Shown here piece by piece: positions 11,656 through 57,869 of a DNA stretch of 64,000 nucleotides; positions within the stretch are counted from its first letter, which is position 1, and each line of letters starts with the position of its first letter. The stretch comes from Nannobrachium achirus (taxonomy: Eukaryota; Chordata; Actinopteri; Myctophiformes; Myctophidae). A model generated the notes under the pieces. The model ran no database searches, had not been told where the DNA came from, and saw only the letters and a program-made list of their open reading frames with translations. The position numbers and the translations under genes were made by a program. The DNA is taken from the NCBI GenBank assembly GCA_963921795.1, contig OY997652.1, forward strand, positions 61,007,756-61,071,755. The letters run 5' to 3'.

Positions 11656-11697
11656 TCAAACCCCGTCCGGCGCCTCAGGCGCAGAGGGGTCAGACCC

Positions 11698-15869: not shown

Positions 15870-16971
15870 TCAAAACTGTTGGGTCACCTGTTGTTTCTGC
15901 CCTGTTGTGTTTATTGGGCTCAGCACCAGACACTTGTGGTCGCAAGTGTCTGTCAGGGGGGCGAGGGTAGTTGGGGGGCTATAGAGTTTAGCCATATTTG
16001 TAAAAATCAAGTCCAGGGTTGCCTGCCCTCGAGTCTTACTTTTAACTATTTGTCGAATATCAGGGTGGGAGGAGGTTAACATTTTTGTGGGTAAATTATA
16101 AAAATCTCCACATAGATATAGTCCCATTTGGGGGGAAGATGCTTTGATTGCATCTATAGTATTTATTAAATACTCCAGAGTTCTGTCCTGGTACAATTCT
16201 TTATTTGCCCAGGGAGGGTGATATAAGTTCCCCACTATAATAGTTGAGACACTGCTGGGGGTCCGACGTGGTTGTAGACAGTTGAACCCACACACACTCA
16301 ATGTCATCACACTCCAGATCCTGTCTCCTCTTTGACGGCAGTCTCTCATGACAGTACACGGCCACGCCCCCTGCACTTTTTTCATTTCTGTCCAACCTTC
16401 TGTCTCTCCTGAAGAGTTTGTAGTCCTTGACCGACAGCGATTCATCTGGAATATTTTCGTGAGCCCACGTTTCAGTAACGCATCCGATGTCTGCATCTAA
16501 CGTTTTCAACCTGAGTTCATATTCATCCGTCTTTTTATTGATTGACCTCGCGTTGCACAGAGTTAACTTTGGCATCCGCGGTTTCTCTCGTTCAGGTTTT
16601 ACATAGCGTATCTCAGACAGGACGCTCTCCCGTTTCCTCATGTGTTTAGGATTCGGTCTGTGTCCTTCTACGATGGTTATTTTCTGCCGTCTGTTCTTAC
16701 CGGCTTTTGATCCTCTTGCCCGGCTTCTTTTGCAGATTATCCCAATACTTTCCAGTGTTTGTTTTATTGCGACCGAAGGTCCCATTACTCTGAAGAACCG
16801 TGTCGCTTGAGTGTCCGAAGCCTCGTGACCGTCCTTCCGAAGCCTCTGTGATGTCAGTGTGATGTCAGCGAGTTGTGACATCACTTCCTGTACAGGGCGG
16901 CTACACGAAATGTGGATAACACTATATATGGAGATAGTCCAGTCCATCATGTCATATGGGACTACCGTCAT
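15870..16971 (-). pseudogene. LINE-2 endonuclease
   Basis: Two overlapping minus-strand frames together cover an APE endonuclease. KLTLCNARSINKKTDEYEL, CVTETWAHENIPDE and SAGGVAVYCHERLPSKRR lie in 16,971-16,201; NLYHPPWANKE, GLYLCGDFYNLP and the distal DTCDHKCLVL in 16,496-15,870. A frameshift near 16,230 separates them. Upstream of the endonuclease is a short basic segment. The first residues repeat the monomer sequence at 17,576-17,797, so the start lies in the tandem 5' region. Confidence 0.78.
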
Positions 16972-18483
16972 AGAAAGTAGCCATTGTTAGGCCGGAGTCA
17001 TTGGCTGTCTAAACATGGAGATGTGGATAACACTATATATGGAGATAGTCTAGTCCAATATGTCATATGGGACTACCGTCATAGACAGTAGCCATTGTTA
17101 ATCCGGATTCAATGGCTGACTGTCTGTACAGGAAGTGATGTCACATGACATACTTTTTATGCCCATATATGAGTCCTAACATGGAGATATGGATAACACT
17201 TTATATGGAGATAGTCTAGTCCAATATGTCATATGGAACTACCGTCATAGACACAGCCATTGACTCCGGCCTAACAATGGCTACTGTCTATGACGGTAGT
17301 CCCATTATGACATGATGGACTGGACTATCTCCATATAGTGTTCTCCACATTTCCATGTTTAGGCCCCATCGCTCACACCCTAGGTGGGGTTGGCGATAGG
17401 GCCTTTCTGTGTGGAGTTTGCATGTTCTCCCTGTGTCTCCTAGGGTTGATACCCTCACAAAAACATGAACAAACTCCCCCCAGAATGATAACAACTAGAA
17501 TCGTCAGAGAAACACTGTGGTTGGCCAGATAGTCAAGAATTGGCGCGACGTCGCATGTCACCCTGAGGTGTCTTACTAGTTGCGACCGAAGGTCGCATAT
17601 ACTCTGAAGAACCGTGTCGCTTGAGTGTCCTTCCTTCCTTCCGTATCCTTGTGACCGTCCTTCCGTATCCTCTGTGATGTCAGTGTGATGTCAGCGAGTT
17701 GTGACATCACTTCCTGTACAGGGCGGCTACACGAAATGTGGATAACACTATATATGGAGATAGTCCAGTCCATCATGTCATATGGGACTACCGTCATAGA
17801 AAGTAGCCATTGTTAGGCCGGAGTCATTGGCTGTCTAAACATGGAGATGTGGATAACACTATATATGGAGATAGTCTAGTCCAATATGTCATATGGGACT
17901 ACCGTCACAGACAGTAGCCATTGTTAATCCGGAGTCAATGGCTGACTGTCTGTACAGGAAGTGATGTCACATGACATACTTTTTATGCCCATATATGAGT
18001 CCTAACATGGAGATGTGGATAACACTATATATGGAGATAGTCTAGTCCAATATGTCATATGGAACTACCGTCATAGACAGTAGCTATTGTTAGGTCGGAG
18101 TCAATGGCTGTCTGTCTGACTGTCTGTAGGATGTCCATGAAAGAATGTCCATCCACCTGGAGAAAAGAAAATGTAACAAGGAGGTGGCAACGGGGCGGCC
18201 AGATAAAGTTATTAGGCCTGGATCCAACTTTAAGTCGACGCACATGATTCCAGAAGTGTAGTGCTTATTCGCTCTTGTATCAAACCGGTACTCGAAACGT
18301 ACTTAGAATTTAACATATTTTCTAAAGTAAATATGGGGGCTGCTGTGTTAAGAACGTTTCGTTGTCAAGCTCAACGTTGGGCATTTGGACCTATACATGG
18401 AGAAATGGAGCGAATCTGTTTGGCCTAAACATGGAGATGTGGATAACACTATATATGGAGATAGTCTAGTACATCATGTCATA
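16840..18483 (-). repeat. Tandem monomers upstream of LINE-2 (5' UTR/promoter-like array)
   Basis: Units share GGAGATGTGGATAACACTAT, TATGGAGATAGTCTAGTCCA, CATATGGGACTACCGTCATA and CCATTGTTAGGCCGGAGTCA. They recur near 16,910, 17,020, 17,170, 17,715, 17,840 and 18,005, and partly inverted at 17,265-17,345. A larger direct duplication covers 16,790-17,260 and 17,600-18,090. The array continues after the insert at 21,355. Confidence 0.75.
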
Positions 18484-24680: not shown

Positions 24681-25552
24681 TTAAATACTAGCGTGGATAC
24701 GCTGGTGTTTCTTCAGGTTACCAGACTCACTGAAACTCTTGTTACATTTTTTACAGTGGAAAGGTTTTTCTCCAGTGTGGATACGCTGGTGTTTCTTCAG
24801 GTTACCAGACTCACTGAAACTCTTGTTACATTTTTTACAGTGGAAAGGTTTTTCTCCAATGTGGACATACTGGTGGTTCTTCAGGGAACGTGACTGTCTG
24901 AAACTCTTATTACAATGTTTACAATTGAAAGGTTTTTTCCCAGTGTGGACACGCTGGTGTCTCTTCAGGGAACCAGACTCGCTGAAACTCCTGCCGCAAT
25001 GTTCACAGTGGAAAGGTTTTTCTCCAGTGTGGACATACTGGTGTGTCTTCAGGGAACCTGACTGAGTGAAACTCTTGTCACAATGTTTACACTGGAAAGG
25101 TTTTTCTCCAGTGTGGACATACTGGTGTGTCTTCAGGTGACCCGACTCTCTGAAACTCTTGTCGCAATGTTCACAATGGAAAGGTTTTTCTCCAGTGTGG
25201 ACACGCTGGTGTATCTTCAGGTCATATGGCCAACGGAATTTCTTGTCACAGTGTTCACAGTGTAAATGATTCTCTCCATTTGGTTGATGATTCAGGAAGT
25301 CTATGTAAGTCTTGAGTTCTTCAGGTTGCTTACATCGATGATGACCAGAGGATCTCGGTCCATCAGTGTCTCCTCGTTTCTGGCTGGTTGTTGAGCTGGT
25401 GGTTTTCTCACAGGCTGCTGGGTTGATGTGTCCACTCCTCTGCATTTGGCCATGGAGGTCGTTGTGTTTATGGAGGAAGTCCTGAGATGTGAGGGTGTAT
25501 GGACTCTCAGAACAGGAGAAGACCTTGGTCTGAGAAGGCTGGGATGTCACTC
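24681..25552 (-). CDS. C2H2 zinc-finger gene A, last exon with seven fingers
   Basis: A putative DNA-binding nuclear protein. The exon starts after a CTCTCTCTCAG acceptor at 25,552 and ends at the TAA at 24,681-24,683. About 110 residues of linker (TSQPSQTK, NPAACEKTTSSTTSQKRG) precede seven C2H2 fingers of the form CxxCxxxFxxxxxLxxHxxxH joined by HTGEKPF linkers. The predicted contact stretches read RWPYDLKIH, RESGHLKTH, TQSGSLKTH, SESGSLKRH, RQSRSLKNH and twice SESGNLKKH; the last two fingers are near-identical and recently duplicated. Phase-1 joining to 26,161-26,373 keeps the frame. Intact in this window. Confidence 0.88.
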
Positions 25553-25994
25553 CTGAGAGAGAGAGAAAGAGAGGGAGAGGAGGGGGGAGGTTAAAATGGT
25601 GTGTACAGATAGATTGAAAATATTCCATCATAAAAAGTCCCTTATTTAGGAGCCATACAGCTTCCCTGTTGATATTTATCTTCTCTCTCTCTCTCTCTCT
25701 TTTGCTCCCTCTCTCTCTCTTGTTTAAAGGGGAGAAACACCCATTTTCAATAATGACCTATGTTATTAAGACCCCTCAAATCCCACTTAAAGCATTTTTT
25801 TTGGGAGTAATTTTCCTTTATAGTATAGCGAATAGTAAGTGAACGAGACTGAAAAATACCCTAGCTGTCAAACATTTTCCCGGCCATTTAAAAAAAAAGA
25901 CACCCCGGCCAAATGTGTTTAATAACCCTCCTAGATGACAAATCCATTGAGAAACGGACCTTTGCTCTCGTGGTCACGGAACTGACATTTTTTA

Positions 25995-30175: not shown

Positions 30176-30585
30176 TATTTTTCATTTTGCACTTTCTTAC
30201 GAGAATCCTAAAAAAAAAACTAAAACTCAATCTCAGCTTTGAGATATTTAGTTCTGAAGACAAAAGTTAAAACCAATGCATCTGTTTGTCAACACTTTTG
30301 ATTTCAAGAGTAAATAATCATATAAACCAAAAGTAGTTCAGATCATTTATGCCATAATCGAGCAGCCCCAAACTTTTGTGAAACGTCATTATTTTTTATC
30401 TGATGGTGGCGCTAGATGGTAGGTAGGAACAGGTTAGGGTTAATCTTCCAGGAAGCATTAAAGTCTTGATCAAGTTTCATGATGATCTGAATCTCCCCAT
30501 TACATTTTTGAGACACCCTGTGTGCAAGTGGAGTTTGGCCAAAAGATGGCGCCAGAGGAAAGGCCATTTGGACATCAGATCAGTA

Positions 30586-30604
30586 GTAAGTGTTAAATAG
30601 CTCC
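30586..30604. other. Near-match to the empty TTAA target site of the giant element
   Basis: TAAGTGTTAAATAGCTCC corresponds to the left flank TAAGTG-TTAA (to 44,127) joined to the right flank TTAA-ATAGC (from 57,870). About 400 bp to the left also align with 43,720-44,123. It shows the site before insertion in the duplicated paralogue. Confidence 0.8.
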
Positions 30605-31309: not shown

Positions 31310-31680
31310 AGGGAAGAATAAACAATAGAGAAATAGGAGATATTTACAATGGAAAAGGAGGGTATAGGTATGGGCTTAGTCTATTACGAGTTTCGAGAAG
31401 CAGCCGTCAGTAGGTGACCTTTCAGACCTATTTTGAAAGAGTCTAGGAATTTGCTCTCATTTAGGGTGTTCCACATAGCAGACTGCAGGAGAACGATTTA
31501 GAGCCTTTTTTAGAGTTAAATCTGGACTGAACATGATTTGTGGAGCTGCCTCTGGTCTGGTGTTGCGAAAAGATAGATGTGCATATTTGCATCATGTAAC
31601 GATGTGAACAAAAAAAAAGCCCTAACTCTGGATGAAAAAGTTATTTACAGGGGTGCCCTGAGTAAAAAAAAATGAAAATC
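31310..31680 (-). mobile_element. Antisense LINE 3' fragment
   Basis: The reverse complement encodes a LINE C-terminus with NESKFLDSFKIGLKGHL, as in the LINE at 7,110-7,188. It corresponds to 541-930 and 59,275-59,610. It directly abuts the end of zinc-finger gene B. Confidence 0.75.
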
Positions 31681-31732
31681 TCTGGTATAAACACCTTTGG
31701 AAATAAAGGGAAGGAGGAGAGACAGTGAAACT

Positions 31733-32905
31733 TACTGAGTTGGTGTCTCTCCAGGTTTGTTGACCCAGTGAAACTCTTGTTACAATGTTTACACTTGAAA
31801 GATTTTTCTCCAGTGTGAACATACTGGTGTGTCTTCAGGGAACCTGACTGAGTGAAACTCTTGTCACAATGTTTACACTGGAAAGGTTTTTCTCCAGTGT
31901 GTTCTCCAGTGTGGACACGCTGGTGTCTCTTCATGTGAGTTGACTGAGTGAAACTCTTGTTACAATGTTTACACTTGAAAGGTTTTTCTCCAGTGTGAAC
32001 ATACTGGTGTGTCTTCAGGGAACCTGACTGAGTGAAACTCTTGTCACAATGTTTACACTGGAAAGGTTTTTCTCCAGTGTGTTCTCCAGTGTGGACACGC
32101 TGGTGTCTGTTCATGTGAGTTGACTGAGTGAAACTCTTGTTACAATGTTTACACTTGAAAGGTTTTTCTCCAGTGTGGACACGGTGGTGTCTCTTCAGGT
32201 CTGTTGACCCAGTGAAAATCTTGTTACAATGTTTACACTTGAAAGGTTTTTCTCCAGTGTGGACAAGTTGGTGTCTCTCCAGGTTTGCTGACCCAGTGAA
32301 ACTCTTGTTACAATGTTTACACTTGAAAGGTTTTTCTCCAGTGTGAATATACTGGTGTGTCTTCAGGGAACCTGACTGAGTGAAACTCTTGTCACAATGT
32401 TTACACTGGAAAGGTTTTTCTCCAGTGTGGACAAGTTGGTGTCTCTCCAGGTTTGCTGACCCAGTGAAACTCTTGTTACAATGTTTACACTTGAAAGGTT
32501 TTTCTCCAGTGTGGACAAGCTGGTGTTTCTTCATGTGAGTTGACTGAGTGAAACTCTTGTCACAATGTTTACACTTGAATGGCTTTTCTCCAGTGTGGGT
32601 ATGCTGGTGTCTATTCAGGTTACCTAACCCTCTGAAATTCTTGTTGCAATGTTCACAGTGGAAAGATTTGTCTGCAATATGGACAAGCTTATGTTGCTTC
32701 AGTTCATATGATGAAATGACACTCTTGTTGCAATGTTTACATTGAAAAGGTTTTTCTCTAGTGTGGACAAACTGGTGTGTCTTCAGGGAACCAGGCTCAC
32801 TGAAAATCTCGTTACAATGTTTACACTTGAAAGGTTTTTCTCCAGTGTGGACACGCTGGTGTCTTGGTCCTTGGACCTTGGTCTGAGAAGGCTGGGACGT
32901 CACTC
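31733..32905 (-). CDS. C2H2 zinc-finger gene B, finger exon
   Basis: The exon begins after CTCTCTCTCTCAG at 32,905 with the same TSQPSQTK segment as gene A. About 100 residues of linker and the first finger have been deleted, so it runs at once into a half finger RHQRVHTGEKPF. Twelve complete C2H2 fingers follow, with alternating TGSANLERH, TQSTHMKRH and TQSGSLKTH contact stretches. Two linkers carry a four-residue repeat (TGEHTGEKP). The thirteenth finger is cut after its first histidine, at CAACTCAGTAAGT, a donor-like site; the open frame otherwise runs on to 31,641 through unrelated repeat sequence. Likely a decaying or alternatively spliced paralogue of gene A. Confidence 0.8.
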
Positions 32906-33113
32906 CTGAGAGAGAGAGAGACAGAGAGGGAGGGAGGGGAGGGGTAGGTTAAAAGGGTGTGTACAGATAGAGATTGAAAAGATTCCATTATCAAAGAAGT
33001 CCCTTATTTAGGAGCCATACAGCTTCCCTCTCTCTCTCTCATTTAAAGAGGAGAACCACCCATTTTCAATATTTAACTATCTTATTAATATACCCCCCCC
33101 CCACACACACACA

Positions 33114-42494: not shown

Positions 42495-43680
42495 ATTTAT
42501 TATTAAGTGTGCCTGCCATGCAACGCAATGGCAAACACTTATTGTAATCCGCCATACTTAATGATAATCACGCCACAAATTTGGAGCCGTAATAACTGCC
42601 GCACAATTTACGCCACCGCCGCAATATATACATCAAAACGTGCGGCTCGGCCGGGAATGGTGTGCTATTACTTTTCTTTCCGATCCGCGTTACCATTGCG
42701 ACGTAATTCGCAAAAAACGACGCCCAAAAACCCCATTGACTTAGAATGGGGGACTCCGAAAAAAAACCAGAAACTTTGGCGCCACATAACTCTGCCATAC
42801 TTTTGCCTAGCAACGTGATTTAAACTTTAAAATGCACACACAACTTGGTCCTTTTCCGACCAATAGGGATGAGCTGTAATTGATTAAGCCCCGCCCCCTC
42901 TATAACAGGAAGTGCCCTTCACCAAACAGGAAGTGCCTCTATAACTCATGAACCGTTTGTCGTACAGACTCGCGGCTGGTGTCATACCTTTTCTTTTTTT
43001 CTCAAAATCTTTTTTTTTTCCTCAAATTTTTTTTTTCTCAAATTTTTTTTTCTCAAATTTTTTTTTCTCAAATTTTTTTTTCTCAAAATTTTTTTTTTCT
43101 CAAAATTTTTTTTTCTCAAAAAATGTTTTTCTCAATTTTTTTTCTCAAAATTTTTTTTTCTCAAAAATTTTTTTTCTCAAAATTGTTTTTTCTCAAAAAA
43201 AAATTTTCTCAATTTTTTTTTCTCAAATTTTTTTTTCTCAAATTTTTTTTTCTTAAAAAATTTTTTTCTCAAAATTTCTTTTTCTCAATTTTTTTTTCTC
43301 AATTTTTTTTCTCAAAATTTTTTTTTTCTCAAAATTTTTTTTTCTCAATTTTTTTTTCTCAAATTTTTTTTTCTCAAAAAATTTTTTTTCTCAAATTTTT
43401 TTTTTCTCAATTTTTTTTTCTCAAAAATTTTTTTTTCTCTATTTTTTTTTCTCAATTTTTTTTTCTCAAATTTTTTTTTCTCAAAATGTTTTTTTCTTAA
43501 TTGGGGCCTATTTCGCCAAACAGGAAGTGCCCCTCACCAAACAGGAAGTGACCCTTGATCTCGTGAACCGTTTGTCATACAGACACGCGGGTTGCGTCAA
43601 ATGAAATAACGCTAATGCTAACACCAACCGCTACACAAGGTTGCACAGACTTAGCGAGCTGCAGGCACACTTAAAATTTC
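42495..43680. mobile_element. Repeat paralogous to 33.1-34.0 kb with a minisatellite insert
   Basis: Inverted counterpart of 33,100-34,012. It starts with CTGCCATGCAACGCAATGGC and keeps single units of the 129-bp repeat at each side of the minisatellite 42,990-43,500, which takes the place of the internal units. No gene. Confidence 0.6.
42990..43500. repeat. TTTTTTTTCTCAAA minisatellite
   Basis: More than 30 units of 13-17 bases (CTCAA plus variable A and T runs). The long F/S-rich ORFs through it are products of the repeat. Confidence 0.95.
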
Positions 43681-44127: not shown

Positions 44128-44266
44128 AGGAGTCATCCAGACCAAAACACATATAGGGTTAAATCTGTCTTTTATCATACCCCTTTATACCTGCTTTAGT
44201 CGATTTTTTTCATAGCTGCCCCTTTTGCTAGATTTCGGCTGCCCCTGTTGCTAGATTTTGCGGGCC

Positions 44267-44635
44267 CTCTCATAACTAACAGAGTGTATAGCCTTTATAC
44301 TAGTGCGGTTATTTCTTCAGCTTCAAAGTTAGTATTTTTTTATTGGATTGTGTTTACACAACGTCCTGAGACCAACCAAACCGCTGTTTTGACCTCACAG
44401 GCACCCTTACTTGTCAAACGGCTTCTGCTCTGCACCAGAGCAGGGAGAGGAGAGGCTAGAAAGGGAGGGGAGGGAGGGGTCGGTTTGACAAGTAAGGGTG
44501 CCTGTGAGGTCAAAACAGCGGTGTGGTTGGTCTCAGGACGTTGTGTAAACACAATCCAATAAAAAAATACTAACTTTGAAGCTGAAGAAATAACCGCACT
44601 AGTATAAAGGCTATACACTCTGTTAGTTATGAGAG
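44267..44635. mobile_element. Foldback MITE present only in the left arm
   Basis: CTCTCATAACTAACAGAGTG and its inverse bound arms of about 150 bp. The homologous place in the right arm (about 57,722-57,735) lacks it. It inserted after the arms were formed. Confidence 0.85.
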
Positions 44636-44647
44636 GAGTAGTTATAT

Positions 44648-44822
44648 AGGCATAGTTTTTTTCTATTAATAGCCCTTCTAAAAATAGCCCTTCTAAAAAT
44701 AGCCCATAGGCATAGTTTTGTTCTAAAAATAGCCCTTCTAAAAATATCCCATAGGCATAGATTGTGTTCTATAAATAGCCCTTCTATTAATATAGGATTA
44801 TTAATAGTATTTCTAAAAATAA
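44648..44822. repeat. Subterminal iterons, left arm
   Basis: ATAGCCCTTCTA-type units occur at least six times, interspersed with CATAGGCATAG. Such repeats next to transposon ends are usual binding sites for a transposase or replication protein; here that role is inferred. Mirror array at 57,546-57,722. Confidence 0.75.
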
Positions 44823-44915
44823 TATTTGACATCTGTTAGGGTGTGTGTGGGGGTTAGAGGGGGAGGGGATGTTGTGATTGACAGGTGACATCTGGGGTTA
44901 GAGAGGGGGGGTTGT

Positions 44916-44950
44916 GTGTGTGTGCGTGCGTGCGTGCGTGCGTGCGTGCC
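44916..44950. repeat. GTGC/TGCG simple repeat
   Basis: GT repeat passing into TGCG units; the mirror at 57,421-57,450 is shorter. Confidence 0.85.
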
Positions 44951-44959
44951 ATCATGGGG

Positions 44960-45170
44960 CATACAATCAGCTCAATCGTTAGTGTATTTTGGATTCATGT
45001 CAATTTGTGTTTTTGATATATTTAATCACTTGAGCCATCAAGTCTTAATAAACTACTTAATTTGCTATTTTGTCTCCCCTACATCATACCTCTTTGCCGA
45101 AAATAACCAATTTACAAGCTCACATACATTATGTGCATGTAGATCTGCTATTTTTGATATAGAATATTGG
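44960..45170. repeat. Internal unit 1 with hairpin module, left arm
   Basis: Starts with CAATCGTTAGTGTATTTTGG, then AATCACTTGAGCC, and ends in a hairpin (45,100-45,155) whose right arm is GTAGATCTGCTATTTTT. Related units at 45,340-45,590 and 46,730-46,970. Confidence 0.7.
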
Positions 45171-45223
45171 TCATCTGCTAGAGGGTCAGAGTTAGGGGCT
45201 GACAGATGAAGGGTGGATGTGGG

Positions 45224-45225
45224 GG

Positions 45226-45279
<54 letters not shown>
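45224..45279. repeat. (GT)n microsatellite, left arm
   Basis: Pure GT; the mirror (CA)n is 57,089-57,143. Confidence 0.95.
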
Positions 45280-45339
45280 TGTCTGTGAGAGGTGTCAATT
45301 CTCACGGTTAAAGGTGTTACCAGGGACCCCTTCAAACTT

Positions 45340-45590
45340 TTTCAGAGATTTCCTTATATTCCTTATTTTCATTATTTGACAGCCCAATCATCAGTGTATT
45401 TTGGATTCATGTCAATGTGTGTTTTTCAGATACTTGATGGAGACCACCATCAAGTCTTAATAAATTACTTAGGCTGCTATTTTGTATCCCCTACACCATA
45501 CCTTTTTGCCAAAAATAACCAATTTACATGCTCACAACGTCTTGTTGTGCGCAATATTATGTGCGTGTAGATCTGCTAATTCTGTAGGTT
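45340..45590. repeat. Internal unit 2 with hairpin module, left arm
   Basis: Same order as unit 1: CAATCATCAGTGTATTTTGG, a degenerate CACTTGA element, then the hairpin at 45,511-45,580 with GTAGATCTGCTAA. Confidence 0.7.
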
Positions 45591-46467
45591 TTCAGGTGTT
45601 TTACTAACTCTTGCATTGCATTGCATTGTGGATTTGCCTACTTTTAAAGCGGTGAAGGGAACTGAACTTAAGAATACAGATACACAGAAAACGGATTCTG
45701 TGATTTTGCTTTATACATATATGTGTTTATATTTAAATCTTTAGGGGCATACCATGTGATATACCTGCACAGTTTTTGATGCAGGTCTTTTACTACCCTT
45801 TTACCCTAATCTGGTAGTTATAGGTGGTACTGTATACTGTACATATTATAGGCAAAACATCATAAAGGGTAGAACCGGTAGTGTACGTAAACAAACTCAT
45901 TAAATTAATGGTTAATCCCTAACATTATACAGTGATTATTACTAACAACACTCATTAGTTGAGTTATCACACTCTTACATACATTTTTTTCCCCCTAATT
46001 ATATATTTCAATAGATGATATGGTACATCATGAAATGGTACCTAAGTTATACAAAATGTCAAATTTCACACAGTAAGTATTGCCAATGCAGTTGTCAGAG
46101 AAGGATTTTCACCCTAACCATACCATGTATAGGGGTGTATATAGTAATTAGACAACTTATTGTTTTATTTCTTGGGTGTTCTGTAGGTTAAGTACGTTTC
46201 TAATGAACATGCTATTACTCACACCATGTACGTTATATTTGCAGTAAAACATGTATGCAAAGCTGACTATTTGGTGTTTTATCTATGACATTATTCTATT
46301 TCACTGGTCTAATAGCAGGGAGGTATGGAGGCTCAGCTATACAATGCTACGAAATAAACCAGTGCTACTGTACCTTTCTATTTTCCTCTCACTACATATT
46401 TGTTTTACACACTACAATTAAAAAAGCTCACCCAGTCACCCTCATACACATCTACAAAACCCAGTAC
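45591..46467. other. Arm interior without recognised gene
   Basis: AT-rich. A 104-codon open frame starting at 46,285 has biased, repeat-like composition and overlaps the direct repeat; not called as a gene. Confidence 0.5.
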
Positions 46468-47112
46468 ATCAACAAAACATCAACACCCCTACACATTACA
46501 GCACAACAAAAGCTAAAACACATGACAAAATGCATAACATTAAACCATAAAGTCACAATATTACTAACAATGTTAATAACAATATGTTCAATAGACTAGT
46601 GTCAATAACAACCAGTAATCCTAAAGCATCCATTAGCTAGTGTGTGTGTATAATGAACAGGTGTTAGGTGACAGTGCAGGGAAGGGTTTATGTGGTGTGA
46701 GAGATGACAGCTGTACCAATAGTTATGGTGTTACCACAACCTTTTCAGAGATTTTCTTATAGTTTCATTTTTTGACAGCACAATCATTAGTGGATTTTGG
46801 ATGTCAATTTGTGTTTTTTTCATATATTTAACCACTAGAGCCATTACCTAAGATAATTGCATTATACCCTACACCAAACCTCTTTGTAAACCAATTTACA
46901 AGCTCACAATGTCTCGTAGCATGCAATATTATGTGCTTGTAGATCTGCTATTTTCACTAGTTTGACTTACATCAACAAAACATCAATACTCCAACATATT
47001 ACAGCACAACAAAAGCTAAAACACATGCAAAATGCAAAACATGAAACCAAAAAGTCACAATATTACTAACAATGTTACTAACAATGTGTTCAATAGACTA
47101 GTGTCAATAAAC
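46468..47112. repeat. Direct repeat pair and internal unit 3, left arm
   Basis: 46,468-46,606 and 46,972-47,112 are about 140-bp direct repeats (ACAGCACAACAAAAGCTAAA, CACAATATTACTAACAATGT). Between them is unit 3 with the hairpin 46,887-46,955 (GCTTGTAGATCTGCTATTTT). Confidence 0.75.
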
Positions 47113-48740
47113 TAATAGTTTCAACCCTTAATCCTAAAACATCCAATAAGACAGCAGGTATATGGCTATGTTATATTCAGTTTGAATAGTAGTTTGACTG
47201 ATTGAATGAAAACATTTTGCATAGGAAAGAGTACACTGGTAACAAGGCCATAACAATTATAGATTTGCAAACTGTGAAAGGTCTATGACATTAAGAGGAA
47301 GATATCCATATTTTAGGATTGCATGCATCATATTGTATTGAAAATGTGTAGATGTATTTATTTTTTTGAGTACCGGCTTATAGATGGGCTCTTTTGAGTC
47401 CCAAGGCAACCAGCTTGTAGATGTGTTATTTTGATGGTAATAGCTTACAGATCTACTATCTTTACTGGGGTGGTGATGTAAGAGTATTATTTCCATAAGG
47501 GGATGCATAATCTACTGGTAATATCGTATGTTTTATCATTTGGTTCGGTATGGCTATGTATGTTGAATTCAAGGCATTAGTTGCGTTGTCAGTAGTGGTA
47601 TTCCATCTGTAAGATAATACATGTAATTCTCATTAACATTACAAAATGAGAGAGGAACCCAAGTTATAGATCTGCTATTTTCACTAGTTTGACTAGCTCA
47701 ACTACTTATAGTTTTATTGCTGAGGTATAATCTGTGTTTTCAAGATTAAATGATTCAAAAGATCTATCTAACCACATCTTGATTACAAAGTGTAACTTAG
47801 TAATACAGTAAAACTTAGTTGGGTTTGTCTGCCAAACCATTTGGTCCCCAGTCATGTTGGATCATTCATTAGGTGTTTTCACTGTATGTAGTGATATTGG
47901 ACAGAATACACATGAAATTGTACGAATATTACAAAAATGATACAGTGTCAGCTTGTAGATCTAATATGTTGACTGTGATATATTCTCAGCATAAATATGA
48001 TTGTATGATTGGTATAATCCCTAATCAAATTATAACATAAGCACTAAAGCCATCATAATGTTAAAATTGGTAAATGTTCATTCAGTTACTGTTTTATTCA
48101 ACCAGTCAGATCATTTTGTTACATGTCAATACCCTATAGGTCTATTAATTCTTACCAGGCTACTGACTATCTCCACAGAGTATTGGTAAACGAGGGTTTT
48201 TTTCTATTATTTTTATCTGATATTAACCCCAACTATGGTCTCTGCTACAACTATATCGACCCATCCCATAAACATGTTACAATTATATCAACAAAGCGAT
48301 GACCGATAAAAAATAACCTCATATTAGTGTTTTAACCACTTGAACCATATTGGCAAAAATGACCGATCTACAAAGCTTATAGCTATAATGCGACAGACCT
48401 GTTACAGGGTGGGGTCTGTGAGAAAATTAGTTTACTCTTTTTGCGTGAACAAATCTCAAAACAGCCTAAATATGGGGGTCTCACTGTGTATAACCTTATG
48501 ATATGCATGGAACTAACCATGGTCAGTCAATTTACATTGTTTTCACTAAAACATCCCATTACATGAACATGTTAACATTTTTAAAGTTTGTGACATTAGT
48601 CCAATACACAGAAAACATTTATTTGTTTATTCGTATATTATCTATAGATGGATTAAAAGACTAGCTATTCCTTAAATTATACTAAATATTGCGTGAAATC
48701 TAAAGATTTAACTTGAATGACAGGCGGATAAAAGATTAGT
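47113..48740. other. Arm interior, further hairpin half-modules, no gene
   Basis: GTAGATC motifs at about 47,415-47,465, 47,664-47,685, 47,950-47,962 and a TTTTAACCACTTGAACC plus GATCTACAAAGCTTATAGCT pair at 48,331-48,395. ORFs are short and unsupported. Confidence 0.55.
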
Positions 48741-48814
48741 TCCCATACCAAGAGTTGAACCGGGGGGCTGCCGGGGTGAAAACCAGGAAATACTAATCGT
48801 TAGACCGTATGGGA
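48741..48814 (-). tRNA. tRNA-Glu(UUC)-like sequence, left arm, probably degenerate
   Basis: The minus strand reads TCCCATACGGTCTAACGATT, then CCTGGTTTTCACCCCGG and GGTTCAACTCTTGG, closing with TATGGGA. The 7-bp acceptor stem is perfect and the anticodon loop TTTTCAC gives UUC. The anticodon and T stems each have a mismatch, there are one or two extra bases, and the A and B boxes deviate. It therefore looks like a nuclear tRNA-Glu derivative rather than a proven gene. No CCA is encoded. Confidence 0.55.
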
Positions 48815-49081
48815 TGCAAATCGTACAAACTGTATAAGTGTACAGGCCAGACTACACAACACAACTATACAACATCAACATGCCTGTATAATATCAAATC
48901 AACTACTGTATATTCAGTACAAATATACATCACCAACAGAAATCAACACCATACTTACTACACATTACTAGTAGATCCACACAAAAACATAAAAAACACA
49001 ACTTGTCCATTAACGTAAAGACAAAATACACAATATGTTCTAATAATAAAGTGTTCAATAGAATAAATTGCGCAATGCACT

Positions 49082-49948
49082 ATGGGACGTTGGAAAGCCG
49101 TGGATATAAAAAAGGAGAATGAGAAGTCTACTTCAGTCTCTTTTTCAAAAATGGATAATACCCATCAATTGGGGCTAGAAAAACAGGATTATGGCGAAGT
49201 AGCGACCAATGTATTGTATACCTTCGCTAAAGATGTAGAAGAATCCTTAGGCTTTAACGAGAAAGATGGAAAGCCCACAATCTTTCCCGGAATCATTTTT
49301 AAAGATGGAGAATATGTACCCACAGGCATAGATCCCTATTTTGATGGATTTATGCAAGGTCGAATGAAATGGATGAATGATACTAATGGAGGGAAAAATA
49401 CCCCACCAGATGATCATTCAATGTACGCATCTGAAGCAGCTCTATGCGGCCTTCCACCACAACACGTGTCCAGCAGCAATTCAAACAATGATAGTGCTTT
49501 CAATTTTAAATCATCGCAGTTTGCGTGGTTAGGGGAACCGGCTAACATGGAGCACACAGGGGTAGCGGATAATCACCGCTGCGGAGCCTGCCACCTTCTG
49601 CTTTCAAAGTTTCTGCCAGGCGATAAACTTTTAAATCAGCATGCATTCTACAGCAGAGGAGAATGTCCGTATCTCAAAGCAAACTATACACCCGACCGGC
49701 TAAAGATTGCAATTGGTCAGGAGAGATTCCGTAGAGGATTTATTGCGCATCCAAACATAATCACAGCCCCCGATGCATGGAAACTACCCGAAATGAAATT
49801 AACAAACAGGATATATGTGACACTGGCTACACAGGAATGGTGTTACTTGTGCGGACGTTCAGCTGGTAATCATGTGCAAAACTGTTACCAAAAAATGACA
49901 GAACTCATACATAGCCTTAACAACGGGCTTCTCGAATTCAAATTATAG
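49082..49948 (+). CDS. BIR-domain (IAP-like) protein, left-arm copy
   Basis: Intron-less, 288 aa. Residues 158-200 form a BIR motif: HTGVADNHRC, C167-x2-C170, then KFLPGD, H187 and C195 followed by PYLK, i.e. C-x2-C-x16-H-x7-C, which binds one zinc. BIR domains occur in inhibitors of apoptosis of animals and of several DNA-virus groups. A second cysteine/histidine cluster, C254-x2-C257-x6-H264-x3-C268, lies near the C-terminus; there is no RING. The N-terminal 150 residues match nothing I know. Start: ACTATGG has A at -3 and G at +4; Met24 in AAAATGG is an alternative. AATAAA near 50,320 may serve as poly(A) signal. The identical copy in the other arm points to recent duplication or gene conversion. 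Confidence 0.85.
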   Translation: MGRWKAVDIKKENEKSTSVSFSKMDNTHQLGLEKQDYGEVATNVLYTFAKDVEESLGFNEKDGKPTIFPGIIFKDGEYVPTGIDPYFDGFMQGRMKWMNDTNGGKNTPPDDHSMYASEAALCGLPPQHVSSSNSNNDSAFNFKSSQFAWLGEPANMEHTGVADNHRCGACHLLLSKFLPGDKLLNQHAFYSRGECPYLKANYTPDRLKIAIGQERFRRGFIAHPNIITAPDAWKLPEMKLTNRIYVTLATQEWCYLCGRSAGNHVQNCYQKMTELIHSLNNGLLEFKL

Positions 49949-50592
49949 TTAAAGTTCTTACAACCGTGATTATACGGTGACATTGTGAATATGTATACAT
50001 TGGAACCCTTGTGTATTTTAGCTTTTCTGTGTGAGCACTTGCTATGCAAGTGCAAGTGATGGTCCTCATACCTTTAATCATAATGAAAATAATGTTTTAT
50101 TTGCTGAAAGCTATGTGTAATTAGTTGATGATTGAGTATAATCCTGACTAATAATGTAGAATTGGTTTGAATAGTATGAAAAGAGATCTTACAGCACATG
50201 GATGGTTCTACAGCCATGTGTACAGACTGCGTTCATAGCTACACAACCATGTCTTGATTGTACTTATTGTACTATTGTGTAAAGCTAATATTAGTATTAG
50301 TTCACCTATGAAAAGAAGAAAAATAAATAAATAAAACACTATATCAATATTATGAGTTTTCTTTCTTCCAAATGTACTTATGATCAGCTTAAAATGGGTA
50401 TATTGCATATGCATATATGCATATTTGTTAAAATATTTACCACTAAACATTACTAGACATCACTGTGTAGTACAGTGGTAAACACAATTATACACAGGTG
50501 AACATGAACACCATAGCTATTGAAAATGGTTCAAAATGCATGTATATCATTTTGGGTTACATGTCAACAGGTCAAAGCTAATACAGTAAAAC
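49949..50592. other. 3' flank of the BIR gene up to the inner arm edge
   Basis: Non-coding except for an 80-codon minus-strand frame at 50,208-50,450. It has one hydrophobic stretch (FYLFIFLLFIGELILILAL) that could span a membrane. The frame is duplicated in the right arm, but AT-rich DNA often produces such runs, so it is not called as a gene. Confidence 0.45.
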
Positions 50593-50773
50593 CAACAACC
50601 AACAAGTATATTCGTATATTTTATTAGTAAACAGGAACACGTATTTACAAGGATACAATGATATACAATACAACTGACTGAATTCACACACAAAACATCA
50701 CTATGGAGTACAGTGGTAAACATAATTATTCAGTTCCAGCCTACGTCACTGGGGGTGTGGTCCTACAGAATGT

Positions 50774-50810
50774 ATAAATGGTGACAACCATGACTGAGTA
50801 TGTATAAAGC
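50774..50810 (+). promoter_or_regulatory. TATA-like elements of the core gene
   Basis: TATAAATG at 50,775 and TATAAAGC at 50,803 precede the favoured ATG at 50,872 by about 95 and 70 bases, a normal spacing for a TATA promoter with a short leader. Confidence 0.45.
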
Positions 50811-50871
50811 TCTCCAATTCTCTGACCCCTTTTCTTTTAAATTTCAAAGAAAACTAATTCTTACAAGTAAA

Positions 50872-51627
50872 ATGGACACTCATCGTTTGATTTACCAGGA
50901 TAAGGATGATCTGATATGGGATTTGTCTAATGAACGTAAAATGCGATGCCATTTTTCGCCACCCACCCTTTTTCCATTTGTTGATCTGTATACATTGGAA
51001 GATGGGGAAACATTATGTTCAGATTTGCATCATGTGAGGGTTTATGCAACTGAATTTAAGAGGTTTGAGACTGCTATCAAGGATTTCACCGATTATTTGC
51101 ACTGGGGGAGATGGGCCAAAGATGACTACATCAAGCCCTCGGATATGGTGAAAGTAGATGAATCGATGCCTTCTCGTTTATCGGACGGAGAAGCCTTCCT
51201 TATCGATTGTTCACGATCATATTTATGGTTGTTGGTGAGATTCAAGTCAATGGGATCAACTTTTGAAAGACCAAAGACTGTAATGGACAAAGAAATGTAT
51301 TTTCCAATCCGTTTAGCCTTTCATGCTGGTGATTTGTGGCTTCTGCAGGACGTGCTGAAATTAATCAATGGGTTTTTCAGAAAAGCAAAAGAGACTCGCA
51401 AGATGATGTTACTGGATGATCGCCTGAACGGTGTAAATCGTGTAGTATCAGGATTGTCTACAAACTACCTCTCTACAAAGAAACCCAAGCGTATATCCCT
51501 GAATAAACCACAACACTTACCGGAATATGACCATAAGCTCGGATGGATTGATTCCATAAAATCATCTGAAAATTCCATAAAATCACCTGTGTTGGCTCAA
51601 GAACTAGAAACCGATGGACCAAAGTAA
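50872..51627 (+). CDS. Core gene, unknown protein (251 aa; 275 aa from the upstream ATG)
   Basis: Single-copy, intron-less gene between the arms. The ATG at 50,872 in AAAATGG is preferred because the upstream ATG at 50,800 overlaps a TATA-like box; it would add 24 residues. The protein starts MDTHRLIYQDKDDLIW and has a conserved-looking middle (LHWGRWAKDDYIKP, AFLIDCSRSYLWLLVRF, YFPIRLAFHAGDLWLLQDV) and a basic, serine-rich tail. No signal peptide, membrane span or zinc motif is evident. I do not recognise a family. Normal amino-acid composition and length argue for a real gene. AATAAAAATATC near 51,740 is a likely poly(A) signal. The BIR gene has a similar internal SKMDNTH start, perhaps a shared leader. 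Confidence 0.72.
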   Translation: MDTHRLIYQDKDDLIWDLSNERKMRCHFSPPTLFPFVDLYTLEDGETLCSDLHHVRVYATEFKRFETAIKDFTDYLHWGRWAKDDYIKPSDMVKVDESMPSRLSDGEAFLIDCSRSYLWLLVRFKSMGSTFERPKTVMDKEMYFPIRLAFHAGDLWLLQDVLKLINGFFRKAKETRKMMLLDDRLNGVNRVVSGLSTNYLSTKKPKRISLNKPQHLPEYDHKLGWIDSIKSSENSIKSPVLAQELETDGPK

Positions 51628-52424
51628 TATGTCACACCAATATGTTGTGTTGATGTCATAATTATGTGATAATTATATTATCACATAATACGTGTTTATG
51701 TGTAACGAGTGTAAAGATGTATCATGTTTTCTTGTCAAAAATAAAAATATCAAAATATAAATATCTGTTTACTAATAAAAGTTTTACTGTATTAGCTTTG
51801 ACCTGTTGACATGTAACCCAAAATGATATACATGCATTTTGAACCATTTTCAATAGCTATGGTGTTCATGTTCACCTGTGTATAATTGTGTTTACCACTG
51901 TACTACACAGTGATGTCTAGTAATGTTTAGTGGTAAATATTTTAACAAATATGCATATATGCATATGCAATATACCCATTTTAAGCTGATCATAAGTACA
52001 TTTGGAAGAAAGAAAACTCATAATATTGATATAGTGTTTTATTTATTTATTTTTCTTCTTTTCATAGGTGAACTAATACTAATATTAGCTTTACACAATA
52101 GTACAATAAGTACAATCAAGACATGGTTGTGTAGCTATGAACGCAGTCTGTACACATGGCTGTAGAACCATCCATGTGCTGTAAGATCTCTTTTCATACT
52201 ATTCAAACCAATTCTACATTATTAGTCAGGATTATACTCAATCATCAACTAATTACACATAGCTTTCAGCAAATAAAACATTATTTTCATTATGATTAAA
52301 GGTATGAGGACCATCACTTGCACTTGCATAGCAAGTGCTCACACAGAAAAGCTAAAATACACAAGGGTTCCAATGTATACATATTCACAATGTCACCGTA
52401 TAATCACGGTTGTAAGAACTTTAA

Positions 52425-53291
52425 CTATAATTTGAATTCGAGAAGCCCGTTGTTAAGGCTATGTATGAGTTCTGTCATTTTTTGGTAACAGTTTTGCACA
52501 TGATTACCAGCTGAACGTCCGCACAAGTAACACCATTCCTGTGTAGCCAGTGTCACATATATCCTGTTTGTTAATTTCATTTCGGGTAGTTTCCATGCAT
52601 CGGGGGCTGTGATTATGTTTGGATGCGCAATAAATCCTCTACGGAATCTCTCCTGACCAATTGCAATCTTTAGCCGGTCGGGTGTATAGTTTGCTTTGAG
52701 ATACGGACATTCTCCTCTGCTGTAGAATGCATGCTGATTTAAAAGTTTATCGCCTGGCAGAAACTTTGAAAGCAGAAGGTGGCAGGCTCCGCAGCGGTGA
52801 TTATCCGCTACCCCTGTGTGCTCCATGTTAGCCGGTTCCCCTAACCACGCAAACTGCGATGATTTAAAATTGAAAGCACTATCATTGTTTGAATTGCTGC
52901 TGGACACGTGTTGTGGTGGAAGGCCGCATAGAGCTGCTTCAGATGCGTACATTGAATGATCATCTGGTGGGGTATTTTTCCCTCCATTAGTATCATTCAT
53001 CCATTTCATTCGACCTTGCATAAATCCATCAAAATAGGGATCTATGCCTGTGGGTACATATTCTCCATCTTTAAAAATGATTCCGGGAAAGATTGTGGGC
53101 TTTCCATCTTTCTCGTTAAAGCCTAAGGATTCTTCTACATCTTTAGCGAAGGTATACAATACATTGGTCGCTACTTCGCCATAATCCTGTTTTTCTAGCC
53201 CCAATTGATGGGTATTATCCATTTTTGAAAAAGAGACTGAAGTAGACTTCTCATTCTCCTTTTTTATATCCACGGCTTTCCAACGTCCCAT
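52425..53291 (-). CDS. BIR-domain (IAP-like) protein, right-arm copy
   Basis: Identical in amino-acid sequence to the 49,082-49,948 product, reading towards the core from the other side. The BIR cysteines and histidine (C167, C170, H187, C195) and the C-terminal CCHC cluster are all kept. Same start context ACTATGG. With both copies intact the element would carry a double dose; identical sequence means neither has yet decayed. Confidence 0.85.
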   Translation of the reverse strand: MGRWKAVDIKKENEKSTSVSFSKMDNTHQLGLEKQDYGEVATNVLYTFAKDVEESLGFNEKDGKPTIFPGIIFKDGEYVPTGIDPYFDGFMQGRMKWMNDTNGGKNTPPDDHSMYASEAALCGLPPQHVSSSNSNNDSAFNFKSSQFAWLGEPANMEHTGVADNHRCGACHLLLSKFLPGDKLLNQHAFYSRGECPYLKANYTPDRLKIAIGQERFRRGFIAHPNIITAPDAWKLPEMKLTNRIYVTLATQEWCYLCGRSAGNHVQNCYQKMTELIHSLNNGLLEFKL

Positions 53292-53558
53292 AGTGCATTG
53301 CGCAATTTATTCTATTGAACACTTTATTATTAGAACATATTGTGTATTTTGTCTTTACGTTAATGGACAAGTTGTGTTTTTTATGTTTTTGTGTGGATCT
53401 ACTAGTAATGTGTAGTAAGTATGGTGTTGATTTCTGTTGGTGATGTATATTTGTACTGAATATACAGTAGTTGATTTGATATTATACAGGCATGTTGATG
53501 TTGTATAGTTGTGTTGTGTAGTCTGGCCTGTACACTTATACAGTTTGTACGATTTGCA

Positions 53559-53632
53559 TCCCATACGGTCTAACGATTAGTATTTCCTGGTTTTCACCCC
53601 GGCAGCCCCCCGGTTCAACTCTTGGTATGGGA
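53559..53632 (+). tRNA. tRNA-Glu(UUC)-like sequence, right arm, probably degenerate
   Basis: Mirror of 48,741-48,814, same bases, on the plus strand. It lies 268 bp upstream of the BIR gene start and is divergent from it. Same stem mismatches as the left copy. Confidence 0.55.
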
Positions 53633-55417
53633 ACTAATCTTTTATCCGCCTGTCATTCAAGTTAAATCTTTAGATTTCACGCAATATTTAGTATAATTTA
53701 AGGAATAGCTAGTCTTTTAATCCATCTATAGATAATATACGAATAAACAAATAAATGTTTTCTGTGTATTGGACTAATGTCACAAACTTTAAAAATGTTA
53801 ACATGTTCATGTAATGGGATGTTTTAGTGAAAACAATGTAAATTGACTGACCATGGTTAGTTCCATGCATATCATAAGGTTATACACAGTGAGACCCCCA
53901 TATTTAGGCTGTTTTGAGATTTGTTCACGCAAAAAGAGTAAACTAATTTTCTCACAGACCCCACCCTGTAACAGGTCTGTCGCATTATAGCTATAAGCTT
54001 TGTAGATCGGTCATTTTTGCCAATATGGTTCAAGTGGTTAAAACACTAATATGAGGTTATTTTTTATCGGTCATCGCTTTGTTGATATAATTGTAACATG
54101 TTTATGGGATGGGTCGATATAGTTGTAGCAGAGACCATAGTTGGGGTTAATATCAGATAAAAATAATAGAAAAAAACCCTCGTTTACCAATACTCTGTGG
54201 AGATAGTCAGTAGCCTGGTAAGAATTAATAGACCTATAGGGTATTGACATGTAACAAAATGATCTGACTGGTTGAATAAAACAGTAACTGAATGAACATT
54301 TACCAATTTTAACATTATGATGGCTTTAGTGCTTATGTTATAATTTGATTAGGGATTATACCAATCATACAATCATATTTATGCTGAGAATATATCACAG
54401 TCAACATATTAGATCTACAAGCTGACACTGTATCATTTTTGTAATATTCGTACAATTTCATGTGTATTCTGTCCAATATCACTACATACAGTGAAAACAC
54501 CTAATGAATGATCCAACATGACTGGGGACCAAATGGTTTGGCAGACAAACCCAACTAAGTTTTACTGTATTACTAAGTTACACTTTGTAATCAAGATGTG
54601 GTTAGATAGATCTTTTGAATCATTTAATCTTGAAAACACAGATTATACCTCAGCAATAAAACTATAAGTAGTTGAGCTAGTCAAACTAGTGAAAATAGCA
54701 GATCTATAACTTGGGTTCCTCTCTCATTTTGTAATGTTAATGAGAATTACATGTATTATCTTACAGATGGAATACCACTACTGACAACGCAACTAATGCC
54801 TTGAATTCAACATACATAGCCATACCGAACCAAATGATAAAACATACGATATTACCAGTAGATTATGCATCCCCTTATGGAAATAATACTCTTACATCAC
54901 CACCCCAGTAAAGATAGTAGATCTGTAAGCTATTACCATCAAAATAACACATCTACAAGCTGGTTGCCTTGGGACTCAAAAGAGCCCATCTATAAGCCGG
55001 TACTCAAAAAAATAAATACATCTACACATTTTCAATACAATATGATGCATGCAATCCTAAAATATGGATATCTTCCTCTTAATGTCATAGACCTTTCACA
55101 GTTTGCAAATCTATAATTGTTATGGCCTTGTTACCAGTGTACTCTTTCCTATGCAAAATGTTTTCATTCAATCAGTCAAACTACTATTCAAACTGAATAT
55201 AACATAGCCATATACCTGCTGTCTTATTGGATGTTTTAGGATTAAGGGTTGAAACTATTAGTTTATTGACACTAGTCTATTGAACACATTGTTAGTAACA
55301 TTGTTAGTAATATTGTGACTTTTTGGTTTCATGTTTTGCATTTTGCATGTGTTTTAGCTTTTGTTGTGCTGTAATATGTTGGAGTATTGATGTTTTGTTG
55401 ATGTAAGTCAAACTAGT
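53633..55417. other. Right-arm mirror of the gene-free interior
   Basis: Mirror of 46,956-48,740, including the hairpin half-modules (for example GATCTACAAGCTGACACTG near 54,413) and one of each direct repeat. Confidence 0.6.
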
Positions 55418-57086
55418 GAAAATAGCAGATCTACAAGCACATAATATTGCATGCTACGAGACATTGTGAGCTTGTAAATTGGTTTACAAAGAGGTTTGGT
55501 GTAGGGTATAATGCAATTATCTTAGGTAATGGCTCTAGTGGTTAAATATATGAAAAAAACTCAAATTGACATCCAAAATCCACTAATGATTGTGCTGTCA
55601 AAAAATGAAACTATAAGAAAATCTCTGAAAAGGTTGTGGTAACACCATAACTATTGGTACAGCTGTCATCTCTCACACCACATAAACCCTTCCCTGCACT
55701 GTCACCTAACACCTGTTCATTATACACACACACTAGCTAATGGATGCTTTAGGATTACTGGTTGTTATTGACACTAGTCTATTGAACATATTGTTATTAA
55801 CATTGTTAGTAATATTGTGACTTTATGGTTTAATGTTATGCATTTTGTCATGTGTTTTAGCTTTTGTTGTGCTGTAATGTGTAGGGGTGTTGATGTTTTG
55901 TTGATGTACTGGGTTTTGTAGATGTGTATGAGGGTGACTGGGTGAGCTTTTTTAATTGTAGTGTGTAAAACAAATATGTAGTGAGAGGAAAATAGAAAGG
56001 TACAGTAGCACTGGTTTATTTCGTAGCATTGTATAGCTGAGCCTCCATACCTCCCTGCTATTAGACCAGTGAAATAGAATAATGTCATAGATAAAACACC
56101 AAATAGTCAGCTTTGCATACATGTTTTACTGCAAATATAACGTACATGGTGTGAGTAATAGCATGTTCATTAGAAACGTACTTAACCTACAGAACACCCA
56201 AGAAATAAAACAATAAGTTGTCTAATTACTATATACACCCCTATACATGGTATGGTTAGGGTGAAAATCCTTCTCTGACAACTGCATTGGCAATACTTAC
56301 TGTGTGAAATTTGACATTTTGTGTAACTTAGGTACCATTTCATGATGTACCATATCATCTATTGAAATATATAATTAGGGGGAAAAAAATGTATGTAAGA
56401 GTGTGATAACTCAACTAATGAGTGTTGTTAGTAATAATCACTGTATAATGTTAGGGATTAACCATTAATTTAATGAGTTTGTTTACGTACACTACCGGTT
56501 CTACCCTTTATGATGTTTTGCCTATAATATGTACAGTATACAGTACCACCTATAACTACCAGATTAGGGTAAAAGGGTAGTAAAAGACCTGCATCAAAAA
56601 CTGTGCAGGTATATCACATGGTATGCCCCTAAAGATTTAAATATAAACACATATATGTATAAAGCAAAATCACAGAATCCGTTTTCTGTGTATCTGTATT
56701 CTTAAGTTCAGTTCCCTTCACCGCTTTAAAAGTAGGCAAATCCACAATGCAATGCAAGAGTTAGTAAAACACCTGAAAACCTACAGAATTAGCAGATCTA
56801 CACGCACATAATATTGCGCACAACAAGACGTTGTGAGCATGTAAATTGGTTATTTTTGGCAAAAAGGTATGGTGTAGGGGATACAAAATAGCAGCCTAAG
56901 TAATTTATTAAGACTTGATGGTGGTCTCCATCAAGTATCTGAAAAACACACATTGACATGAATCCAAAATACACTGATGATTGGGCTGTCAAATAATGAA
57001 AATAAGGAATATAAGGAAATCTCTGAAAAAGTTTGAAGGGGTCCCTGGTAACACCTTTAACCGTGAGAATTGACACCTCTCACAGA

Positions 57087-57144
<58 letters not shown>

Positions 57145-57290
57145 CCCCCACATCCACCCTTCATCTGTCAGCCCCTAACTCTGACCCTCTAGCAGATGAC
57201 CAATATTCTATATCAAAAATAGCAGATCTACATGCACATAATGTATGTGAGCTTGTAAATTGGTTATTTTCGGCAAAGAGGTATGATGTA
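55418..57290. repeat. Right-arm mirror of internal units 1-3 and direct repeats
   Basis: Hairpins at about 55,418-55,486, 56,790-56,862 and 57,215-57,271 correspond to units 3, 2 and 1. (CA)n is at 57,089-57,143. Confidence 0.7.
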
Positions 57291-57545
57291 GGGGAGACAA
57301 AATAGCAAATTAAGTAGTTTATTAAGACTTGATGGCTCAAGTGATTAAATATATCAAAAACACAAATTGACATGAATCCAAAATACACTAACGATTGAGC
57401 TGATTGTATGCCCCATGATGGCACGCACGCACGCACGCACACACACACAACCCCCCCTCTCTAACCCCAGATGTCACCTGTCAATCACAACATCCCCTCC
57501 CCCTCTAACCCCCACACACACCCTAACAGATGTCAAATATTATTT

Positions 57546-57722
57546 TTAGAAATACTATTAATAATCCTATATTAATAGAAGGGCTATTTATAGAACACAA
57601 TCTATGCCTATGGGATATTTTTAGAAGGGCTATTTTTAGAACAAAACTATGCCTATGGGCTATTTTTAGAAGGGCTATTTTTAGAAGGGCTATTAATAGA
57701 AAAAAACTATGCCTATATAACT
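57546..57722. repeat. Subterminal iterons, right arm
   Basis: TAGAAGGGCTAT units, the inverse of those at 44,648-44,822. Just outside, GCTGCCCCTGTTGCTAGAT is present twice in tandem, as in the left end. Confidence 0.75.
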
Positions 57723-57869
57723 ACTGAGAGGGCCTGCGAAATCTAGCAACAGGGGCAGCCGTAATCTAGCAACAGGGGCAGCTATGAAAAAAATGGAATA
57801 AAGCAGGTATAAAGGGGTATGATAAAAGACAGATTTAACCCTATATGTGTTTTGGTCTGGATGACTCCT

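Follow-up and report, generated by a model that had tools for sequence, protein, structure and literature searches.

What kind of element forms a giant palindrome with genes of its own in the genome of Nannobrachium achirus, and how does it come to exist in many copies? The window analyzed here is a 64,000-nucleotide stretch of contig OY997652.1 (positions 61,007,756 to 61,071,755, forward strand; coordinates below without a contig prefix count from its first letter), and the palindrome occupies 44637..57725. It is quite probably a non-autonomous, satellite-like member of the Mavericks (Polintons) that has lost the core genes, carries one accessory-gene end in fold-back inverted form, and is replicated in trans by helper elements.

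The element measures 13,089 bp, with AGTAGT...ACTACT ends, and is composed of a left arm (44637..50592, plus strand, 5,956 bp), a single-copy loop (50593..51780, 1,188 bp) and a right arm (51781..57725, minus strand, 5,945 bp). The arms are 99.7% identical, differing by 2 mismatches and 4 gap openings per 5,958 columns. The left terminus, AGTAGTTATATAGGCA (44637..44652, plus strand), is followed by short TTCTAAAAATAGCCC-type repeats, and the right terminus (57710..57725, minus strand) is the inverted AGTAGTTATATAGGCA motif. A 6-bp target-site duplication, GAGAGG, abuts both ends (44631..44636 and 57726..57731). Each arm encodes a BIR-domain protein of 288 amino acids (aa), identical in the left (49082..49948, plus strand) and right (52425..53291, minus strand) arms, and the loop encodes a 275-aa protein without known domain (50800..51627, plus strand). 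We call the latter core275 and a further cargo protein of other copies HPSQ, both names coined in this analysis. A first-pass annotation, made from the sequence alone, had described a giant palindrome with a single-copy core of ~1.2 kb, one BIR open reading frame (ORF) per arm, one core ORF and no recognized transposase, all of which is borne out here; the BIR ORF recurs at no fewer than 33 loci. Its edges (44128-57869, 13.7 kb, TTAA-bounded) and arm lengths (6.1-6.5 kb) were too wide. In 8 of 9 other close copies the common sequence begins at AGTAGT (the ninth, on C8, reads N at one end, and its other end was not located), which sets the element edges at 44637-57725 and led us to reject TTAA as the boundary.

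The outer sequence belongs to a host. The giant element is nested in an older TTAA miniature inverted-repeat transposable element (MITE), which is the source of the TTAA and the AGGAGTCATCC ends. The left part of this MITE, with its AGGAGTCATCC end, lies outside the element at 44128..44636 and the right part at 57732..57869. Joining the flanks with one GAGAGG copy restores a ~655-bp MITE palindrome, 91.6% self-complementary and bounded by AGGAGTCATCC and TTAA; this joined sequence found no match in the fetched tiles of the nine other element copies. In a self-comparison of the window, the inner arms (~5.95 kb) are 99.7% identical and the outer pieces, 145 bp each, 95.9%; only the left side has a further self-palindromic piece, and these additional ~364 bp are MITE sequence. 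A paralogous empty site of the MITE (30184..30601, plus strand) matches the left flank over 428 bp at 89%, running only about 5-9 bp past the junction. The TTAA-bounded unit described earlier is therefore a MITE with the giant element nested inside. The claim of an insertion was correct, but the proof cited for it (TTAA, AGGAGTCATCC ends and the empty site) belongs to the host MITE, the element's own duplication being GAGAGG.

Across the 1.66-Gb genome the BIR ORF has 57 matches, mostly free of stops, which represent at least 33 loci: 20 convergent inverted pairs and 13 single ones. Locus numbers (at least 33 for BIR, at least 25 for the polymerase gene polB discussed below and at least 77 for HPSQ) were collapsed by hand from genome-search matches and are lower bounds. 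Sequence was read for eleven of the 33 BIR loci, namely the window element, nine of its close relatives and C508, a copy of the single type. Both ends are readable in ten, and all ten possess AGTAGT...ACTACT ends and an exact 6-bp target duplication, the ten duplications being ten different sequences; these copies are 13.1-16.4 kb long. The eleventh (C8:35.3M) is the copy with one unlocated end. A genome search with the terminal motif revealed 15 convergent end pairs spaced 12.9-20.2 kb, 14 of which hold a BIR match, besides 7 matches without a partner and one further pair whose members lie 93 kb from each other. Because a reversed control pattern of the motif matched equally often (40 matches), single matches mean little and convergent pairing is the signal. 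The palindromes are thus a real multi-copy family, apparently a young one, judging by its low divergence. Two end pairs stand apart. At C10:37305947-37320430, convergent window-type termini are separated by 14.5 kb, and the matches listed between them include no BIR, core275 or HPSQ. The two convergent family termini 93 kb apart (C14:15777689-15870910) may belong to nested insertions, pair by chance or result from a mis-join.

Copies differ in layout, with arms of 5.1-7.3 kb and loops of 0.2 to 6.0 kb (10 copies measured). HPSQ lies within 15 kb of 27 of the 33 BIR loci, the window locus being without it; the window loop holds core275 only. C24a has core275 in each arm and HPSQ in the loop. 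C13, C12, C15a and C22 combine core275, a CARD protein and HPSQ, with core275 interrupted in C12 and C22. C4b is palindromic right to its center, its 214-bp middle being itself 89% self-complementary, and it contains no core275 match and HPSQ only as a 148-aa piece. The single-type copy C508 differs from the others in the sequence after AGTAGT, and its first 18 bases occur genome-wide only at its own two ends; its 5.3-kb arms contain no ORF above 120 aa, with BIR, HPSQ and core275 all placed in a 4.5-kb loop. Beyond BIR, core275, HPSQ and CARD, the ORF lists of the copies read include no ORF above 150 aa wholly within an element. C4a alone carries a ~1.05-kb self-palindromic insertion in its right arm (L012:3299-4347). 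As loop size and loop genes vary, the turn-round point differs among copies, as expected if symmetric molecules arise by fold-back at different places.

Vertebrate Mavericks are described in the main text of PMC8097293 as possessing (AGT)2//(ACT)2 ends, a 6-bp target duplication, a size of 12.7-24.6 kb and terminal inverted repeats of 46-1,447 bp, the end repeats serving protein-primed replication. The palindromes carry the same termini and duplications of exactly 6 bp in 10 of 10 readable copies, and their sizes, both as read (13.1-16.4 kb) and by end pairs (12.9-20.2 kb), fall inside the Maverick range; uninterrupted ORFs are a further likeness to the elements in that text (PMC8097293). Of the two origins first considered for the element, a reduced DNA-virus-derived element fits these Maverick-type ends and duplications, and mobilization by Kolobok or piggyBac does not, all ten readable copies having 6-bp duplications and AGTAGT ends in place of TTAA; Mavericks are also closer than Teratorn, which had been offered for comparison.

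The genome itself carries at least 25 loci with the polymerase family PF03175 (polB); the frame is open over 1,268-2,682 aa at 21 of these loci. All 25 are called Mavericks here from the polymerase gene alone. HPSQ homologues (39-55%) occur within 15 kb of 12 of these 25 loci, versus 0.03 expected, in convergent orientation at 12 of 12. At 7 of those 12, core275 homologues (37-43%) stand beside HPSQ, with the strand and gene order of the palindromes. Going inward from the end opposite the polymerase, one meets core275 and then HPSQ at polB loci; in window-type palindromes the inward order is BIR, core275, CARD where present, and HPSQ. Mavericks of the same genome and the palindromes thus have core275 and HPSQ in common, in the same order, and because of this agreement the palindromes resemble a single accessory end present twice in inverted orientation, with the core genes missing. 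Their Maverick affiliation is well supported. They do fall short of full Maverick membership, as no core genes were seen and the arms are far too long: integrase, ATPase, protease and capsid genes were not recognized in the copies (judged from ORF lists and from Pfam on 11 ORFs only), and none of the 25 polB loci was found within 30 kb of any of the 33 BIR loci.

The probable route to such a molecule begins with a linear Maverick-type genome that loses its core genes. One accessory-gene end would then be doubled in inverted orientation, so that each side carries the same Maverick terminus. Most likely this would happen in the course of protein-primed strand-displacement replication, when the polymerase or a strand, displaced or nascent, folds back and the product is copied. 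As each end keeps the (AGT)2 origin, the enzymes of resident Mavericks could act on the palindrome, their polymerase copying it and their integrase inserting it with 6-bp duplications. Arms may also be copied from each other during replication, which would account for near-identical arms in most copies. Fold-back origin, helper dependence and cargo function are what we infer from sequence; the first two ideas combine the Maverick account of PMC8097293 with general knowledge of adenovirus biology.

Arm comparisons over 2.2 kb fit this proposal. Arms within a copy differ by 0-0.18% in 7 of 10 copies, versus a mean of 1.2% (range 0.09-2.0%) between copies. The same three of ten copies that have discordant arms (0.8-1.6%) have at least one arm closer to another copy than to its own partner, their arms falling in different tree groups; in C13, the arms differ by 1.56%, and the right arm is only 0.09% from the window. 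This suggests arm exchange between different co-replicating elements and argues against steady conversion in place. The balance is about even for a broader scheme in which these satellites parasitize endogenous Mavericks for replication, integration and perhaps packaging, with recurrent fold-back, with arm exchange, and with BIR and multi-CARD proteins keeping the infected cell alive; packaging enters because palindrome size falls in the Maverick range.

Several observations weigh against a derivation from Mavericks by fold-back. The arms, at 5.1-7.3 kb, exceed the 46-1,447 bp of Maverick terminal repeats; the comparison loci are assigned by a single gene, and the ends of polymerase-bearing elements were looked for and not located. 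BIR was found at 0 of 25 polB loci, so a Maverick source for this gene is not supported. Its position is not constant either, since in C508 it lies after HPSQ, on the same strand, and not ahead of core275. When the 6 kb upstream of 5 polB genes was compared with the arms, there was little beyond simple repeats among the matches listed, and no terminal repeat in common with a polymerase-bearing Maverick was found there. Finally, the three copies with discordant arms mean that homogenization is not universal.

The cargo points toward host defenses. The BIR protein matches Pfam PF00653 at E 5.8e-4, just under the curated cut-off, and a BIR match at E≤0.1 is present in 16 of 16 alignment members, the window protein included. 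Its structural model has a predicted local distance difference test score (pLDDT) of 57.8; the best Protein Data Bank (PDB) matches in Foldseek are IAP BIR domains, with no match at 1e-3 or better (best PDB E 3.9e-3, best viral 1.8e-3). The CARD ORF of C12 contains four Pfam CARD stretches at E 7e-12, over the cut-off. For core275 and HPSQ no family was found (Pfam, 11 ORFs compared). The core275 model, at pLDDT 38.5, displays a low-confidence strand/helix pattern with no relative of known function, and we therefore claim no fold. A large protein collection holds homologues of BIR (15), core275 (3) and HPSQ (1), mostly on contigs below 4 kb, and none of the BIR, core275 and HPSQ alignments picked up a relative in a scan of viral contigs. 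Ratios of nonsynonymous to synonymous substitution (dN/dS) against the C508 copy are 0.33 for BIR, 0.45 for core275 and 0.51 for HPSQ, and 0.44 and 0.54 for two further HPSQ pairs, all five being simple pairwise counts without a statistical test. The cargo ORFs are uninterrupted in most matches listed. BIR, CARDs, core275 and HPSQ probably restrain cell death or innate signaling during element replication.

The open ORFs and dN/dS below 1, together with a core275 that has only a low-confidence strand/helix pattern to offer and lacks any relative of known function, could instead belong to an autonomous new virus or transposon, in which core275, HPSQ, BIR or an unseen spliced gene is a diverged replication or integration protein and no Maverick helper is involved. 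This is unlikely. The ends and the 6-bp duplication are of Maverick type, HPSQ and core275 homologues occur as further genes near a polymerase gene, and both C4b, with no core275 and a 148-aa HPSQ piece, and the window element, with neither HPSQ nor CARD, are still complete insertions, so HPSQ, core275 and CARD are seemingly not needed in cis. Slightly less probable again is that ordinary defective Mavericks were made palindromic after insertion by a host inverted duplication, with gene conversion in place keeping the arms identical. Gene conversion does homogenize long palindromes elsewhere. Here, however, the 6-bp duplication of each of the 10 copies lies outside the whole palindrome, which was therefore inserted already as a palindrome, and the discordant arms of three copies are placed in different arm-tree groups. 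High identity in the window also ends at the element's edge, with 2 mismatches per ~5,940 aligned bases inside versus 6 per 145 in the abutting MITE arms (p 4e-9), although the MITE arms could have diverged earlier.

Two further explanations are very improbable, each to the same degree. The TTAA flanks of the composite in the window would suit a TTAA cargo transposon mobilized by piggyBac or Kolobok, or a herpesvirus fusion of the Teratorn type, but the host MITE explains these flanks, which are restored once the insert is left out. The ends of the ten readable copies are of the AGTAGT kind, with a 6-bp duplication that is different in each, and no herpesvirus or piggyBac gene was found among the 11 ORFs compared with Pfam. 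An assembly artifact comes to mind because long inverted repeats are hard to assemble and C8:35.3M runs into N on one side with its other end not located; against it, convergent pairs are present at 20 of 33 loci on many contigs, and each of the 10 copies readable at both ends has flanks, a loop and a duplication of its own.

The satellite interpretation has partial counterparts among known systems. Palindromic defective adenovirus genomes arise when a linear, protein-primed genome becomes symmetric, with one end on both sides, and they depend on a helper. The proposed likeness lies in a symmetric, helper-dependent molecule derived from a linear protein-primed genome; the adenovirus palindromes arise in culture and are not integrated families, whereas here dozens of genomic copies carry conserved genes. 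A literature search on them found no paper among the matches listed. Virophages and Polinton-like viruses are likewise smaller linear DNA elements, often integrated in eukaryotic genomes and thought to depend on a larger virus. They encode capsid and replication genes and parasitize giant viruses of protists, whereas the palindromes have no capsid or replication gene that we could see and would rely on a Maverick as helper. Foldback elements and MITEs are non-autonomous, have long inverted repeats and are moved in trans; the palindromes far exceed them in length, end like Mavericks and have conserved protein genes in both arms and loop. Relative to vertebrate Mavericks, the palindromes are set apart by 5-7 kb terminal repeats, by BIR and CARD cargo and by the lack of any polymerase found near BIR loci. 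Among the matches listed in a literature search of titles and abstract openings, there were no palindromic Maverick satellites and no BIR or CARD cargo in Mavericks. The main text of PMC8097293 does not contain "palindrom", "panhandle", "gene conversion", "apoptosis" or "nonautonomous", and a whole-word search of PMC11071296 returned no BIR, CARD, apoptosis or Maverick.

If vertebrate Mavericks do have satellites, then in living animals the Maverick polymerase and integrase must have worked in trans, a point that would bear on the open question of whether Mavericks still act as viruses. In that case the palindromes would be a genomic record of a replication by-product that, to our knowledge, is otherwise known only in linear DNA viruses grown in culture. 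Which host defenses such elements must defeat is hinted at by the BIR and CARD genes, and Maverick surveys based on core genes would miss them.

Related arrangements occur elsewhere in the genome. core275 followed by at least 2 HPSQ paralogues, with no PF03175 match listed nearby, is present at C4:66.36M, C4:66.50M, C6:43.96M, C8:45.91M and C19:0.478M, as well as at C10:15.06M, C10:37.49M, C10:54.20M, C10:57.21M, C11:48.58M, C6:52.30M, C12:3.41M, C22:45.48M and C21:19.55M. These 14 loci are probably a further polymerase-less family. Convergent inverted core275 pairs with no BIR listed lie at C2:11593206/11598558, C3:69358922/69364112, C5:67058237/67063469 and C5:56968117/56974390, and a convergent inverted HPSQ pair, also with no BIR listed, at C24:23090731/23096826; palindromes therefore seem to have formed in further families.

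The rest of the window contains long retroelement-type ORFs at 1595-7188 and 11638-16986 (endonuclease and reverse transcriptase-like, by eye) and, on the minus strand, C2H2 zinc-finger arrays at 24681-25757 and 31641-32948 (by eye). Just left of the element, at 42884-43558, overlapping frames are open as Phe/Leu/Ser/Lys repeats.

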